Source: Prochlorococcus sp. AG-355-A09 (GTDB taxonomy: Bacteria; Cyanobacteriota; Cyanobacteriia; PCC-6307; Cyanobiaceae). From it: DNA of 64,000 bases. A program made the position numbers and the translations under genes. Positions 4,963-46,996 of the stretch are shown piece by piece (positions within the stretch are counted from its first letter, which is position 1; every line of letters begins with the position of its first letter). The stretch spans positions 1-64,000 of the forward strand of contig QCDG01000009.1 of the NCBI GenBank assembly GCA_003280995.1. Direction: 5' to 3'. The notes beneath the pieces are model-generated. The model saw only the letters and a list, made by a program, of their open reading frames with translations, was not told where the DNA came from and did not search any database.

Positions 4963-5012
4963 TTATTTTTCTAATTTGCTAGAAAGCGAAGTTCTTAATT
5001 TATTTACGAATC

Positions 5013-5714
5013 TTGATTGCAGGGTTAGAATTATTATGGTTTAAAAGGTTTTTTTTGAAAAAGGAATTAACACATCGTTCACATGAACTTAAAGCTCTTG
5101 GTTGGAATCAAGAAGACTTAACAAGATACGAAGATTTATGGGAATATAGTCAAAGATGGGGATTAATAAATTTAGAAAGAGAAGACAGACAGTTTTTAAA
5201 GAATGCAGAAATGTTACTTCCAAAGATTCAAAATAAAAAGATATCCGTTAAAAAAACTATTGAAGAAAAATCTTATTATCTATGGTTAAATTTTTACCTC
5301 GATGAAATTAATATTTTTAGTAATTCTAATCTTCCAAAAAATAAATATGGTGTTTGGACACTCTTAATTGAAGAGGAAATAAAACTTCTTAAGGAATTAC
5401 AACCAGTTATGGGTCTTCCAGATACTATAAAAGCTAAGAATCTATTCGAAAATAGAAAAGAGCTTATAAATAAAGCTTTTAGCGAATTTGATGCTAAGAA
5501 CAATGATAAGGGTTTCAACTTTGATGAAGTTTTAAACAACTCTGAAAAAGATGTTGGTAAGAATTGGAAATCAATTATTGAAAAAAATCCTGAGGCTAAT
5601 AAAACTTTTCCAATAATTGAATCTGCAAATATTGATAAACTCAGATCTGCGATAAAAGAGGATTTGGGTACATATATGAAAGATAATTACCCCTCATTAA
5701 AAAAGGATTTATAA
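5013..5714 (+). CDS. Hypothetical protein, hydrophilic, 233 residues
   Basis: I do not recognise this protein. It is highly charged and mainly helical by composition, with tryptophans near the N-terminus (GWNQEDLTRYEDLWEYSQRWG). The start is taken as TTG at 5013; no in-frame ATG precedes the conserved-looking N-terminal part, and a TTG near 5055 is an alternative. It begins 50 bases after the 502-residue gene on the same strand and may be cotranscribed with it. No cofactor motif, membrane segment or signal peptide is visible. Confidence 0.6.
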   Translation: MIAGLELLWFKRFFLKKELTHRSHELKALGWNQEDLTRYEDLWEYSQRWGLINLEREDRQFLKNAEMLLPKIQNKKISVKKTIEEKSYYLWLNFYLDEINIFSNSNLPKNKYGVWTLLIEEEIKLLKELQPVMGLPDTIKAKNLFENRKELINKAFSEFDAKNNDKGFNFDEVLNNSEKDVGKNWKSIIEKNPEANKTFPIIESANIDKLRSAIKEDLGTYMKDNYPSLKKDL

Positions 5715-12710: not shown

Positions 12711-14337
12711 TATTTAAGCAGGCTCTTCTACTCAAGGCCATCATTGTAAGTGTAGGGCTTTGCCAAGATGATGTGGGCCAGCATGCTCCATCTAATACAA
12801 GTACATTCTTGCATTTCCATAATCTATTAAATTTATCAACTACGCTATTTTCTTCATCTACCCCCATTGATGCCCCCCCTACTTCATGAATGTAATATCC
12901 AGGAGGAGGAGGACTATCTGAAAGTGCGATCAAATTTTTTGTAAATAGACTCCCTAATGGGATATTCATTAGTTCATTAATACTTTTTATTTCTCCATTA
13001 GCAGCTGTGATTGATTTACGGATTGTGTTTTCCATATGTTTAGCCATATTTAACTCATTTTTGCTCCATTCGAATTCAATGTAAGGAATTGGGATACCCC
13101 ATTCATCTGTTTTTCGTGAGAGAGAAACTGAGTTTTTCTCTCTAGGAAGGACTTCGCCATGGGCGATAAGAAAGCCAATGGATGTGTTTGTATCTTTTTG
13201 CAAAAATTTAGGAATCCCTAATCGATCAATTGCCCCCCAGATTCCATAACCTCTATGGAAATTTATGTCGTCAATTTCTGGTAAATTTGAACCAAATGGA
13301 ATAAAGAAGCTGCCCGCTCCAGAAAGATCAGGAGGATTATCTACTGGTTTATCTGAGTTTTTTGTTTTTGGGACTGAAAAAAATCTACAGATAGATATGT
13401 GATCCATGAGGTATTTGCCTAATTTTCCAGAATTATCTTTAAACCCTGAGGAATTTGTTTTATATTCTGAGTTCAGTAGTATTCTGAGTGTTGAAATTGT
13501 TGATGCGCAGAGAAGGATTAAATCACAATTTAATACTTCTTTTTGTCCATTTTCTAGGTTTACGATCGTTAGTTTTGAGGCAAGCTCTGTTGCCTTGTTA
13601 ATCTCAAAAGACTCCACTAGGTAATTAGAGATTATTTGTACATTTCCAGTATCTAAAGCTTTTTTTAAAGAGCTTCCTAAGCTAGAGGACTTTGGCCATT
13701 TTTTTTCTTTTACTGATGAATTACGGTCAAATCCTCTTGATTGGATAAATGGATAGTTTAATTTTGATTTTACTTTGCTGCCAAAAACATTTTCGTCTTC
13801 TGTAAGAGGTATTTCTCCAATATATTTACCGTTTGGGACTTCTTTAATGTCATCTTTTCGTCCATAGATGCCGCAGAAATTTTCAATGAAATCATAGTGA
13901 GGGGATAGTTCATCGTATGAAATAGGCCAGTTTGGTCCGAATCCGTCTTTTTTAGCGGGATGAAAGTCTTCTGAGGAAAGTCTTAATGTTATGCCTCCCC
14001 AAGTTAATGATCTCCCCCCATATTGTTTACCTTGGGTCCAAAGAAATGGCTTTTTTTTTGGGAAGTCATAAGGATGCTTCAATTCATTTGAATATAAGTC
14101 AGGATTATTTTTCCAATAACCAGGATGTTGACATTGATTTGCATGTTTTTTTGTTAAAACTCCTGATAATCTTTTGAATGTACTTTTTGGCTCATGATTA
14201 CTAGCTTCATGCCTTTTAACTTGAGGCCCCGCTTCTATTACTAAAACTTTGATTCCTTGTTCTGCCAATGTAAGTGCTGCTATTCCTCCTGTAGCTCCAG
14301 AACCAACAACAATTGCATCATAAGGACTTATATCCAA
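12697..14337 (-). CDS. GMC-family (glucose-methanol-choline) FAD oxidoreductase
   Basis: A 546-residue flavoprotein. The FAD dinucleotide-binding motif AIVVGSGATGGIAALTLAEQG lies at residues 8-28. The region QYGGRSLTWGGITLRLS is the second FAD contact. The C-terminal block (EVGGASMGVDEENSVVDKF, then VLDGACWPTSSWQSPTLTMMALSRRA) holds the family's catalytic His/Asn area, here with W/S in place of some consensus residues. Members oxidise alcohols, sugars or choline; the substrate here is unknown. No signal peptide is seen. It converges on the DUF2811 gene and diverges from the pentapeptide-repeat gene. Confidence 0.85.
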   Translation of the reverse strand: MDISPYDAIVVGSGATGGIAALTLAEQGIKVLVIEAGPQVKRHEASNHEPKSTFKRLSGVLTKKHANQCQHPGYWKNNPDLYSNELKHPYDFPKKKPFLWTQGKQYGGRSLTWGGITLRLSSEDFHPAKKDGFGPNWPISYDELSPHYDFIENFCGIYGRKDDIKEVPNGKYIGEIPLTEDENVFGSKVKSKLNYPFIQSRGFDRNSSVKEKKWPKSSSLGSSLKKALDTGNVQIISNYLVESFEINKATELASKLTIVNLENGQKEVLNCDLILLCASTISTLRILLNSEYKTNSSGFKDNSGKLGKYLMDHISICRFFSVPKTKNSDKPVDNPPDLSGAGSFFIPFGSNLPEIDDINFHRGYGIWGAIDRLGIPKFLQKDTNTSIGFLIAHGEVLPREKNSVSLSRKTDEWGIPIPYIEFEWSKNELNMAKHMENTIRKSITAANGEIKSINELMNIPLGSLFTKNLIALSDSPPPPGYYIHEVGGASMGVDEENSVVDKFNRLWKCKNVLVLDGACWPTSSWQSPTLTMMALSRRACLNIKKT

Positions 14338-43673: not shown

Positions 43674-43858
43674 AGATTACTGGATCTTTGGTTAAGTTCT
43701 TCTTTATGTGCTCTGATCTGACTCTCTTTCGACATGAGGAGACTGTCGTGATGCGGTAGTAAACCGATCTTGTAATCGGAAACGAAAGCCCACTTTGAAT
43801 CCTCTTCTGGCATTTCCAGGTCGATGCAGCAGAGAACTGACGGGGATCCGGTCTTACC
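43674..43858 (+). ncRNA. ssaA: 6S RNA
   Basis: A structured, relatively GC-rich stretch of about 185 bases just after purK. The ends pair: ACTGGATC near 43677 with GATCCGGT near 43845, then AGTTCT with AGAACT. Inside is a central hairpin CCGAT-CTTGTA-ATCGG flanked by purine-rich single strands, the open-promoter-like bulge of 6S RNA. Position after purK is the known location of the gene in Synechococcus and, as I recall, in Prochlorococcus. 6S RNA binds and modulates RNA polymerase holoenzyme. Exact ends are estimates. Confidence 0.75.
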
Positions 43859-43965: not shown

Positions 43966-44012
43966 TTGACGATCAATTCCCAATGTATTTATATTAGTAG
44001 TACATATGTATT
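43966..44012 (+). promoter_or_regulatory. Promoter with LexA-like dyad, DUF1651 copy A
   Basis: TTGACG (43966-43971), an 18-base spacer and TATATT (43990-43995) make a strong sigma70-type promoter. AGTACATATGTATT (43999-44012) follows the -10 directly. It contains the perfect dyad TACATATGTA and fits the cyanobacterial LexA box RGTACNNNDGTWCB with one mismatch. The same module recurs at 46418-46463. Confidence 0.55.
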
Positions 44013-44020
44013 GCTAATTA

Positions 44021-44320
44021 ATGACTTTAGGAGGAGCTAATGTTTGGACTAATTTTTCTTACGGTTATCGTAATGAGTCCCCAAGTGGTTGGTTGCTTAG
44101 CCCAGACCGCAGCAGATTAATTTTATTTATAAGGAACAAAAAATCTCCAAGAAATAGTATGAGAATTTTTGCTCATACATATTATGCAAATGATCTTGGT
44201 GAGCCAATGGCAATTAAATCATCCACTCAAATGTATTTGGATAATGCTTGGGATAAATGGCATGACCTTCAATTAGAAGGTTGGACTTTTGAAGAACTTG
44301 AATTACCTGAATCTGTATGA
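44021..44320 (+). CDS. DUF1651 family protein, copy A
   Basis: A 99-residue soluble protein. SPSGWLLSPDRSRLILF and the later AWDKWHDLQLEGWTF match the DUF1651 pattern, a picocyanobacterial family of unknown function. The first 20 residues form an extension before the domain. The ATG at 44021 has no Shine-Dalgarno and lies only about 18 bases from the predicted transcription start. A second ATG in the +1 frame (44040) has a good one. Paralogue of the gene at 46470. The next small gene starts inside its stop codon (ATGA). Confidence 0.75.
   Translation: MTLGGANVWTNFSYGYRNESPSGWLLSPDRSRLILFIRNKKSPRNSMRIFAHTYYANDLGEPMAIKSSTQMYLDNAWDKWHDLQLEGWTFEELELPESV
44040..44120 (+). CDS. Candidate nested 26-residue hydrophobic peptide, copy A (+1 frame of DUF1651)
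   Basis: An ORF in the +1 frame inside DUF1651 copy A. ATG at 44040 is preceded by AGGAGG with a 5-base gap. The peptide starts MFGLIF, has a hydrophobic core and PQVVGC resembling a lipobox, and ends at TAA 44118-44120. Copy B at 46489 has exactly the same length and the pattern MFGLIF...PQ..GCL. Eleven of 26 residues are identical and most of the rest are conservative. Translation is unproven. Confidence 0.45.
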   Translation: MFGLIFLTVIVMSPQVVGCLAQTAAD

Positions 44321-44457
44321 CTAACTTAAATCCAATCAAAAAGAAATTATCAAAAGTAGATAAAAAGATATCTATGCAAGACCCATCAAAATTATTAGCA
44401 GAATTTTTTAATGGTGTTGTCATTGAACTTGATGAAGAATATAAATATGACTCATAA
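44317..44457 (+). CDS. 46-residue basic/acidic hypothetical protein
   Basis: Starts MTNLNPIKKKLSKVDKK, with its ATG overlapping the DUF1651 stop as ATGA, and ends IELDEEYKYDS. The N-terminal half is basic and the C-terminal half acidic. No family known. It is the second gene of a three-gene unit, and the next gene starts 11 bases before its end. Confidence 0.55.
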   Translation: MTNLNPIKKKLSKVDKKISMQDPSKLLAEFFNGVVIELDEEYKYDS

Positions 44458-44599
44458 AAAATTGATAGATCAAGTTTCCGCAAATTTATTTAAACAAAGT
44501 GGAAAGTTAGAAAGCAGAAGATCTTGGTTGGCAATGAGAAATTATCTTGAGCAATTAGATACCGAACAACTTAAATCCATGCTTAAGGACCAAGGATGA
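44447..44599 (+). CDS. 50-residue hypothetical protein
   Basis: Starts MTHKKLIDQVSANLFKQSG at an ATG inside the preceding gene. An upstream in-frame ATG at 44411 would extend it by 12 residues but buries it deeper in that gene. The SRRSWLAMRNYLEQLDTEQLKSML segment looks like a compact two-helix protein. Last gene of the DUF1651 copy A unit. Confidence 0.55.
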   Translation: MTHKKLIDQVSANLFKQSGKLESRRSWLAMRNYLEQLDTEQLKSMLKDQG

Positions 44600-44609
44600 T
44601 TTAAAAACT

Positions 44610-44723
44610 TTATTTAGTTTTTATTTTTTTCTTAATTCTCAGAAAACCGTAAGTTGCAAAGCCAACCAAAAACATATCCAAGTAAATATGCCAAGTAGGA
44701 AAAATCTGGTGTATTAATTCCAT
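44610..44723 (-). CDS. 37-residue single-pass membrane protein
   Basis: Starts MELIHQIFPTWHIYLDMF. One helix (YLDMFLVGFATYGFLRI) is followed by a basic tail (KKKIKTK). Its start codon touches the stop of the ligase-like gene, so it is the last gene of that unit. Typical of the many one-helix proteins of this region. Confidence 0.55.
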   Translation of the reverse strand: MELIHQIFPTWHIYLDMFLVGFATYGFLRIKKKIKTK

Positions 44724-45472
44724 TAACGTTTTATTGCAACTTGCCAATAAGGATAATCTAAATTTGATTTTTCTCTAATCAATTGTAATTTTCTAGAATT
44801 TATTTTTACTACTATTCCATCTGTTGGATATTTACTAAAAAGCTTCCCTTCTAGCCATTGTTTTCTAAATACTTCAACTTGGCTCGTAAAGTTGCATGAA
44901 ATATCCTGAGGGATCGTGAAGCCAAGCTTTGAAAGACTCTTTTTGGACTCATATTGGTTAAGTGTTGAATTAAGTATTTGAAATGCGCAGAAGCTAAGAC
45001 TTCCAGAAAATCCTTCTTTAGCTCTTAGAAATCCAGAAGCGATTCTCTGGGAGATATTTGGACTTTGGTTGGGTGCGTATAATTCACCTCTAACTTGAAG
45101 AATTCCTCGTAAAGGGAGATTATTGGGAATGTCTTGGACTTTAATAAGTTTACTAGTAACGTCTGCCCCTTTTCTTGAAATTGCTTTCTCCAAGGTGCCA
45201 TCCCTATATTGCAAAGCAACAGCACAACCATCAATTTTCGGTTCAATTAATAATCTTGTATCTGCTAATAAACCTTTCAAAAATTCATCTATTGAATCCT
45301 TTTCTAATGAAGGTAAAACTAGTTTATTTTTCTTTTTGAAGTAATCACAATTAGGGTTTGTTCTTAATAAATTTTTTTCAAGTTGGTCGAACTGTTTATC
45401 AGAGATTAAAGCATTACCATTTCTGTAATTATCGTCATACCATTCAATTCGTTCTTCTAAATAAGTTTTCAT
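44723..45472 (-). CDS. Stand-alone NAD+-type DNA ligase adenylation domain
   Basis: A 249-residue protein that matches only the N-terminal part of LigA. Residues 8-36 (IEWYDDNYRNGNALISDKQFDQLEKNL) resemble domain Ia, which binds NMN. The adenylation motif EPKIDGCAVALQYRDG has the KxDG lysine. Motif III/IIIa-like VRGELY and ASGFLRAKE, motif IV-like YPTDGIVVKIN and the final YWQVAIKR (motif V lysine) follow. OB, zinc, HhH and BRCT domains are missing; full LigA is about 670 residues. It could adenylate an unusual nucleic acid or be a relic; the catalytic residues are kept. Confidence 0.75.
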   Translation of the reverse strand: MKTYLEERIEWYDDNYRNGNALISDKQFDQLEKNLLRTNPNCDYFKKKNKLVLPSLEKDSIDEFLKGLLADTRLLIEPKIDGCAVALQYRDGTLEKAISRKGADVTSKLIKVQDIPNNLPLRGILQVRGELYAPNQSPNISQRIASGFLRAKEGFSGSLSFCAFQILNSTLNQYESKKSLSKLGFTIPQDISCNFTSQVEVFRKQWLEGKLFSKYPTDGIVVKINSRKLQLIREKSNLDYPYWQVAIKR

Positions 45473-46417: not shown

Positions 46418-46463
46418 TTGACGCTCAGGAGTAGTACATTTATATTAATAGTACAACTGTATT
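46418..46463 (+). promoter_or_regulatory. Promoter with LexA-like dyad, DUF1651 copy B
   Basis: TTGACG (46418-46423), a 17-base spacer and TATATT (46441-46446), then AGTACAACTGTATT (46450-46463) with the dyad TACA-AC-TGTA. It fits RGTACNNNDGTWCB with one mismatch, as copy A does. An extra AGTAC sits inside the spacer (46433-46437). Confidence 0.55.
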
Positions 46464-46469
46464 ATCTTA

Positions 46470-46760
46470 ATGACTTCAGGAGTAGCTAATGTTCGGACTA
46501 ATTTTTATTGTGGCAGCCTTATTGACACCCCAGCTGGCTGGTTGTTTAACAAAAAAAGTGGTTTATTAATTCTTTTTGAGAGTTATAAGAAATCTCTATC
46601 TAATAATGAAAAAGTTTATACCCACCTTTTCTATGCAAATGAATTAGGTGAACCAGCTCAACTTAAAAATTCAAGACTACATTCTATTGAGTGTGCTTGC
46701 GAAACATGGGATGAATTAGTTTCAGGAGGTTGGCAAATTGTTACTGGTAAATTCCACTAA
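46470..46760 (+). CDS. DUF1651 family protein, copy B
   Basis: A 96-residue paralogue of the protein at 44021, sharing ANV.TNF near the N-terminus, P.GWL, then HTYYAN/HLFYANELGEP-like and a W...GW C-terminal pattern. ATG at 46470 lacks a Shine-Dalgarno; the nested +1 ATG at 46489 has AGGAG. The next gene begins 2 bases after its stop. Family function unknown. Confidence 0.75.
   Translation: MTSGVANVRTNFYCGSLIDTPAGWLFNKKSGLLILFESYKKSLSNNEKVYTHLFYANELGEPAQLKNSRLHSIECACETWDELVSGGWQIVTGKFH
46489..46569 (+). CDS. Candidate nested 26-residue hydrophobic peptide, copy B (+1 frame of DUF1651)
   Basis: Same frame offset and length as copy A. Starts MFGLIF, has a hydrophobic core and PQLAGC, a textbook lipobox (LAGC), then LTKK and stop at 46567-46569. 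AGGAG lies 6 bases upstream. Differences from copy A in this frame are mostly hydrophobic-for-hydrophobic, while the DUF1651 frame changes radically over the same bases (YRNES versus SLIDT). Confidence 0.45.
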   Translation: MFGLIFIVAALLTPQLAGCLTKKVVY

Positions 46761-46762
46761 TC

Positions 46763-46996
46763 ATGATTAAGGTAAATCCTTCAAAATGGGAATATCTAAA
46801 AGAATCTACTCTAAAACGAAAACGTAAAAAGATTTGTATTACTTGCAATCACTTTCGCTACAGCACTACAGAAACTTTTGCTACTGTCTTGATATGTCCA
46901 AGATACGAAAAACGTATACCACAGGGAGACCATTTACTTAAAGGTTGTGAATATTGGCAAAAAAATAAGACTATATTTTCTCCTGAAGGATCTTAA
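46763..46996 (+). CDS. 77-residue cysteine-rich (zinc-ribbon-like) protein
   Basis: Basic N-terminus (LKRKRKKI), then CITCNHFRYSTT, LICPRYEKRIPQGD and LKGCEYW: a Cx2C...C...C set that could hold zinc or an Fe-S cluster. It is cotranscribed behind DUF1651 copy B. Copy A carries two different small genes at this place, so the downstream cargo differs. Confidence 0.65.
   Translation: MIKVNPSKWEYLKESTLKRKRKKICITCNHFRYSTTETFATVLICPRYEKRIPQGDHLLKGCEYWQKNKTIFSPEGS

Follow-up and report, generated by a model that had tools for sequence, protein, structure and literature searches.

DinQ of Escherichia coli is described as a LexA-controlled, single-transmembrane peptide of 27 amino acids (aa) under antisense RNA control (PMC3567139). 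The locus reported here, a nested open reading frame (ORF) within a gene for a DUF1651 protein, resembles dinQ in its length of 26 codons, in a LexA-like box upstream, and in the antisense RNA reported to its counterpart in Prochlorococcus MED4; it differs in that dinQ is intergenic, whereas the nested ORF lies inside another coding gene. It is for DinQ only that toxicity, a location in the membrane and control by antisense have been established (PMC3567139). TisB/IstR-1 of E. coli likewise pairs a small hydrophobic peptide (29 aa) that is SOS-induced with an antisense RNA (PMC2518516). TisB, however, has an mRNA of its own and does not share its bases with a conserved protein gene. The small, membrane-located SidA of Caulobacter crescentus is a possible model for the effect of the nested peptide, although SidA has a gene of its own. 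SidA is reported to be an SOS-controlled division inhibitor (PMC13384398). In laoB of E. coli O157:H7 a short protein gene has arisen over another gene (PMC5810103), but laoB is antiparallel, whereas the nested ORF is on the same strand as its host gene and confined to its start. Within Prochlorococcus the nearest parallel is provided by Yfr6 and Yfr9 of MED4, transcripts that could encode short peptides and that have antisense partners, of which one of each pair is phage-induced and which have been proposed as toxin-antitoxin candidates (PMC2518516); their peptide frames are in non-coding RNAs and not within a protein gene. In the same strain PMM0684 and PMM0685 are reported to be induced mid-to-late by phage, and levels of an antisense RNA to PMM0684 increase along with it (PMC2518516). 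PMM0684 and PMM0819 are also among 41 host genes that are up in MED4 infected by P-SSP7, and no known function is attributed to DUF1651 (PMC5490813, PMC2518516).

The 64,000-nucleotide stretch of Prochlorococcus sp. AG-355-A09 that was analysed (the window, on contig 9) contains two of the six DUF1651 matches in this 1.52 Mb genome, 2.4 kb apart and both on the forward strand. Copy A (44021..44320, 99 aa) matches PF07864 with 41.9 bits and copy B (46470..46760, 96 aa, in an annotated-type frame) with 50 bits, so that both exceed the curated Pfam cut-off of 22 and the host frame is a member of the DUF1651 family. Nested in the +1 frame of copy B, on the same strand, is an ORF at 46489..46569 that encodes MFGLIFIVAALLTPQLAGCLTKKVVY; its start lies 19 nt beyond that of DUF1651, and a Shine-Dalgarno (SD) sequence AGGAG (46478..46482) ends 6 nt before the nested ATG at 46489, whereas the DUF start of copy B lacks one. 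The preliminary description of this ORF was accurate as to the 26 codons, the AGGAG, the MFGLIF start, the PQLAGC motif and the coordinates. Copy A has the same design, with a +1-frame counterpart of 26 codons at 44040..44120, also on the forward strand, that encodes MFGLIFLTVIVMSPQVVGCLAQTAAD. The MFGLIF start, PQ, G18 and L20 are common to these two peptides and to a third from another clade.

Several neighbouring features were also recorded. A 62-aa ORF (44411-44599) is low in synonymous change at codons 2–6 (5 changes vs 19.4 expected), and its start may be overlapped by an upstream ORF in another frame. A leftwards 249-aa ORF (44723-45472) is shorter than a full NAD-dependent DNA ligase and matches just its adenylation domain (PF01653, 69.3 bits); it is represented by 101 distinct sequences among the fetched loci. 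A 77-aa ORF with four cysteines (46763-46996) starts 2 nt after copy B. A 75-aa relative of it on contig 1 of the same genome, near position 79022 (L288), has a perfect LexA-like box directly 5′, and in genome G015 another relative, of 76 aa, lies behind PMM0684 at 653377 and is probably PMM0685. Just 5′ of copy A is a 6S RNA gene (43674-43858), which in MED4 is yfr7. The yfr7 gene is located at 652625..652844 in MED4, between purK and PMM0684 (PMC1242208). A copy-A-type leader occurs at 652946 in G015, and because this position matches the yfr7–PMM0684 neighbourhood we take G015 as MED4 and its copy-A-type gene as PMM0684. Of six such genes in G015, the DUF1651 gene at 774489-774689 lies closest to the place that gene numbering gives PMM0819 and is probably that gene.

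Relatives were at first picked by the leader pattern, and because a sample so chosen is biased towards that leader they were re-chosen by DUF1651 homology, with the nested frame scored afterwards. The sources comprised the best 80 of 211 genome records, 60 places from the leader-pattern search (three of them unrelated genes) and others, and closely related high-light strains predominate. The conservation set consists of the DUF1651 frames found by profile search in relatives L037-L257 without L097-L126, together with the window, and amounts to 270 frames, of which 236 are distinct. The relatives of copy A are recorded as Prochlorococcus or Synechococcaceae.

The second frame is open and conserved across species, as is expected of an overprinted gene. 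The nested ATG and 26 codons are present in 110 of 111 distinct B-type copies, the remaining one having 25 codons, and in 106 of 111 distinct A-type copies; of the five broken A copies, three have ACG in place of the start and two stop after 19 codons, and an intact B is present at all five loci. Loss of the nested ORF from paralogues with this leader had been named in advance as evidence against selection, and such loss is seen in these five A copies and, among B copies, in two indel alleles. One sequence (L170) was left out of the B count, as it had been placed with B by rule but is an unrelated DUF1651, and 13 frames were classed as 'other', including three B copies, while a further B copy (L219) was missed by the anchor pattern. 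Of the four B copies that fall outside the count, L219 and L234 are intact, and L211 and L214 are the indel alleles. In both of these (each near 5490), and in protein P0112, natural indels cause the nested start to read in frame into DUF1651, L214 having a later stop in addition; such alleles could be null, or could reflect errors in the sequence. The codon for DUF residue 7 is AAT or TAT in all 111 B copies, and the next, codon 8, is GTT in every one of the 222 copies of A and B; among 118 more diverse DUF1651 proteins, residue 7 is S, K, P or C in nine, which, judging from the protein, should destroy the nested ATG.

Substitutions were counted by parsimony on FastTree trees of 102 distinct A and 110 distinct B sequences, with expected synonymous changes taken from each copy's own downstream changes, such that the downstream ratio is close to 1 by construction. 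In copy B, DUF codons 7–24 have 22 synonymous changes vs 94.1 expected (0.23), compared to 237 vs 226.6 (1.05) in codons 34–95. The ratio is normal (0.87) in codons 25–33, so that only residues 1–18 of the nested peptide (46489-46542) are held and residues 19–26 are not; codons 2–6 of copy B show no synonymous suppression (1.60). Changes at nested positions 1, 2 and 3 number 27, 25 and 62, vs 114, 272 and 157 downstream (p=2e-8), and the most variable class of site in the overlap is the nested third position, which is DUF position 1. The changes from TGG to CGG provide an example, replacing Trp9 by Arg in the DUF frame and being silent in the nested one. In B the observed/expected ratio is 0.465 for DUF-replacing, nested-silent changes, 0.207 where a residue is altered in both frames, and 0.373 for DUF-silent, nested-replacing changes. 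The picture is unchanged among the B copies that are paired with A (100 sequences; 51, 23 and 17 changes at DUF positions 1, 2 and 3). Ten B-like copies of other clades have no position shift (7, 5 and 11 at DUF positions 1, 2 and 3) and do have the synonymous deficit (0.56 per codon vs 1.15). Six neighbour genes scored alike at codons 7–24 gave 1.05, 1.45, 1.20, 1.03, 0.75 and 0.62. Given the deficit of 0.23, the peak at the nested third position and the 0.62–1.45 range of the neighbours, the substitution record argues strongly that residues 1–18 of the nested frame are under purifying selection as protein in copy B, and hence for a second coding frame.

Copy A presents a different picture. 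Its DUF codons 7–24 have 18 synonymous changes vs 45.4 expected (0.40), with 147 vs 146.3 in codons 34–95 and a ratio of 1.10 in codons 25–33, and there is no suppression in its codons 2–6 (0.87). The position profile of copy A is not shifted (2, 19 and 6 changes at nested positions 1, 2 and 3; p=0.63), and nested-silent DUF replacements are not favoured (0.057, vs 0.106 for replacements in both frames). The preliminary description had proposed selection on the nested frame from a comparison of the two copies, in which the nested frame appeared to change conservatively and the DUF frame radically. This asymmetry holds in B, where 55 nested replacements have a mean BLOSUM62 score of +0.38 and 89 DUF replacements over the same bases a mean of −0.52, but is reversed in A, with 23 nested replacements at −0.91 and seven DUF replacements at +0.71; the proposal of selection is thus strongly borne out for B and less so for A, where the synonymous deficit is what supports, moderately, a second coding frame. 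In the window pair itself both frames are identical at nine of 18 sites over nested residues 1–18, with BLOSUM62 scores of 55 for the nested and 47 for the DUF frame; when synonymous codons were independently redrawn, 0.03% of the 3536 draws that stayed open scored 55 or more, under a null that ignores shared ancestry. The paralogues appear to differ in state: the nested frame takes the lead in B, where the DUF start is relaxed, whereas it is the DUF frame that leads in A, where both frames evolve slowly.

The signals upstream of the two copies are similar. Promoter-like sequences precede both on the forward strand, TTGACG-N17-TATATT at 46418..46446 for copy B (10 of 12 matches) and TTGACG-N18-TATATT at 43966..43995 for copy A (a pattern match), although the whole region contains ten such sites, fewer than the 17.7 of its shuffles; all 222 copies of A and B carry TTGAC, and 204 of them have a −35/−10 pair. 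Between promoter and gene, and 5 nt before the DUF start in copy B, is a LexA-like box, TAGTACA-AC-TGTATTA (46449..46464), with a counterpart in copy A (TAGTACATATGTATTG, 43998..44013) that has one mismatch. Such a box is found 5′ of 219 of the 222 copies (111/111 A and 108/111 B). The published Prochlorococcus LexA consensus is TAGTACA-N2-TGTACTA (PMC2921402; LexA sites of Prochlorococcus are also published in PMC3091678), and the copy B box is one base off it; by this match the copy B promoter has a LexA box, to which LexA would be expected to bind. Palindromes of the LexA type occur at 18 places in the genome, vs four for the reversed pattern, and one of them, GGTACAAATGTATT, is 5′ of a lexA-type gene (Peptidase_S24 match) and has the letters published for MED4 lexA (PMC2921402, PMC3091678). 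A third DUF1651 gene, on contig 6, is behind a LexA-type box and has no such nested ORF. We also note two tandem LexA-like sites before a 65-aa ORF on contig 8 (near 12976-13011; L300), which is a candidate for another SOS gene.

The start signals bear on what the nested frame is for. All 222 copies have an SD sequence before the nested start, and only three have one before the DUF start, 19 nt upstream, as would be expected if the nested frame were a translated cis regulator, with a strong nested start that sets the use of the SD-less DUF1651 start or couples the two frames. Translation alone, however, does not require conservative residues, and in B the nested replacements are conservative and nested positions 1 and 2 are held; we regard this explanation as unlikely. 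Slightly less probable is a constraint that resides in the DNA or RNA and not in a peptide, such as a cis-antisense RNA or its promoter, or a translation-initiation sequence. The antisense RNA reported to PMM0684 (PMC2518516), the unshifted position profile of copy A, and the reduction at codons 7–24 of two of the neighbour genes (those at 0.62 and 0.75) are in its favour, and for copy A it is the stronger rival. It fits copy B poorly, where the three-base profile tracks the nested frame; moreover, codons 2–6 are closer to the start and unsuppressed, and no unusual or stable RNA fold was found (folding z-scores of +1.71 and +0.41).

A further explanation is that the nested ORF is a by-product of the DUF1651 sequence and of A+T-rich codons, which opened by chance and has persisted through shared ancestry. 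For copy A this has some force, as random recoding of its DUF residues keeps the ATG and 26 codons in 43% of draws, and 33% of its downstream +1 windows (1413/4318) are open. It is contradicted for B, where recoding keeps the ORF in 11% of draws, 58 of 4022 downstream windows are open, and synonymous change is suppressed. Simulation had been suggested as a way to expose conservation of the +1 frame by chance, and on the B tree, with selection on DUF1651 only, the nested ORF was kept as observed (110/110 tips) in none of 300 runs (mean 16.9, maximum 100), with a minimum of 43 synonymous changes in codons 7–24 vs the 22 observed. In A the retention is borderline (97/102 intact, reached by 5% of simulations), and the 18 synonymous changes are below all 300 runs (minimum 29). 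These simulations overshoot downstream synonymous change by about 7–9% (160.5 vs 147 for A and 253.8 vs 237 for B). Taking both copies together, we consider a by-product origin very improbable.

The nested ORF is predicted to encode a single-pass membrane peptide. Residues 1–18 have a mean hydropathy of 1.97 in A and 1.93 in B, and K, R, D or E occurs among them in two of 219 ATG-started peptides; one MED4 copy has an Arg within the hydrophobic stretch. The DUF residues account for part of this hydrophobicity: on recoding, the real frame is equalled by 10% of the frames for B and by 0.8% for A. In a structural model of copy A (built from 13 sequences) DUF residues 1–13 have pLDDT values below 50, as would fit an extension able to accommodate a second frame. 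PQLAGC had been called a classic lipobox, with the suggestion of a lipoprotein lipidated at Cys19, and a lipobox-like motif does end at Cys in 191 of the 219 copies. Residue 19 is Tyr or Phe in the other 28, however, and the Cys codon is free to vary: DUF codon 25, which supplies its first two bases, has seven synonymous changes in A and seven in B, the highest or nearly the highest in the overlap. Because charged residues are so rare in residues 1–18, there is also no positively charged signal-peptide start. With a variable lipobox Cys and an uncharged start across the 219 copies, the peptide lacks the marks of a bacterial lipoprotein, and we consider lipidation very unlikely. Least likely of all is a −1 frameshift from the nested start yielding a membrane-anchored DUF1651. 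In its favour, copy B has runs of C and A, the constraint ends near nested residue 18 and the two indel alleles fuse the frames; against it, copy A and the MED4 copy either lack these runs or have shorter ones.

We therefore favor, with a probability of roughly 0.55, an overprinted +1-frame gene for a hydrophobic membrane peptide that is controlled by LexA, produced upon DNA damage or phage infection, and acts in the manner of DinQ and TisB. The conserved ATG and length, the synonymous suppression, the position shift in B, the SD sequence at the nested start only and the LexA-like box are all properties of the DNA sequence; from them, LexA binding, translation of the peptide, its insertion into the membrane and a membrane-directed effect under stress are predicted, and the peptide is probably both SOS- and phage-induced. 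In such a scheme DNA damage or phage infection would lift LexA repression and allow transcription of one short mRNA starting about 17 nt before the DUF ATG. The AGGAG would recruit ribosomes to initiate at the nested ATG and make the membrane peptide, while DUF1651 would initiate without an SD sequence, 19 nt upstream and in the overlapping frame, such that damage or infection would yield both the membrane peptide and a soluble DUF1651 protein. The peptide would then likely act on the membrane as E. coli DinQ and TisB do. This comparison is drawn because a hydrophobic peptide of such a size is combined with a LexA-like box and a phage-induced counterpart; it is a likeness in working, and we do not claim membership of a toxin-antitoxin family.

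A contig from a viral collection (L257) carries an A-type DUF1651 gene (5001-5291) with an intact nested ORF and a LexA-like box, and a match to a terminase small subunit at 580-1101 (phrog_57, E 3.2e-16). We speculate, tentatively, that the nested frame is an SOS-controlled, type I-like membrane toxin or infection-response peptide that arose by overprinting, is released together with DUF1651 when LexA is cleaved in cyanophage infection or upon DNA damage, is checked by a cis-antisense RNA, has been duplicated in high-light Prochlorococcus, and is carried on a terminase-bearing mobile element such as this one. If the overprinted gene is real, a phenotype of PMM0684 or PMM0819 may stem from the hydrophobic peptide and not from DUF1651, and the locus would stand as a well-resolved example of overprinting on the same strand, in a free-living genome of very small size.
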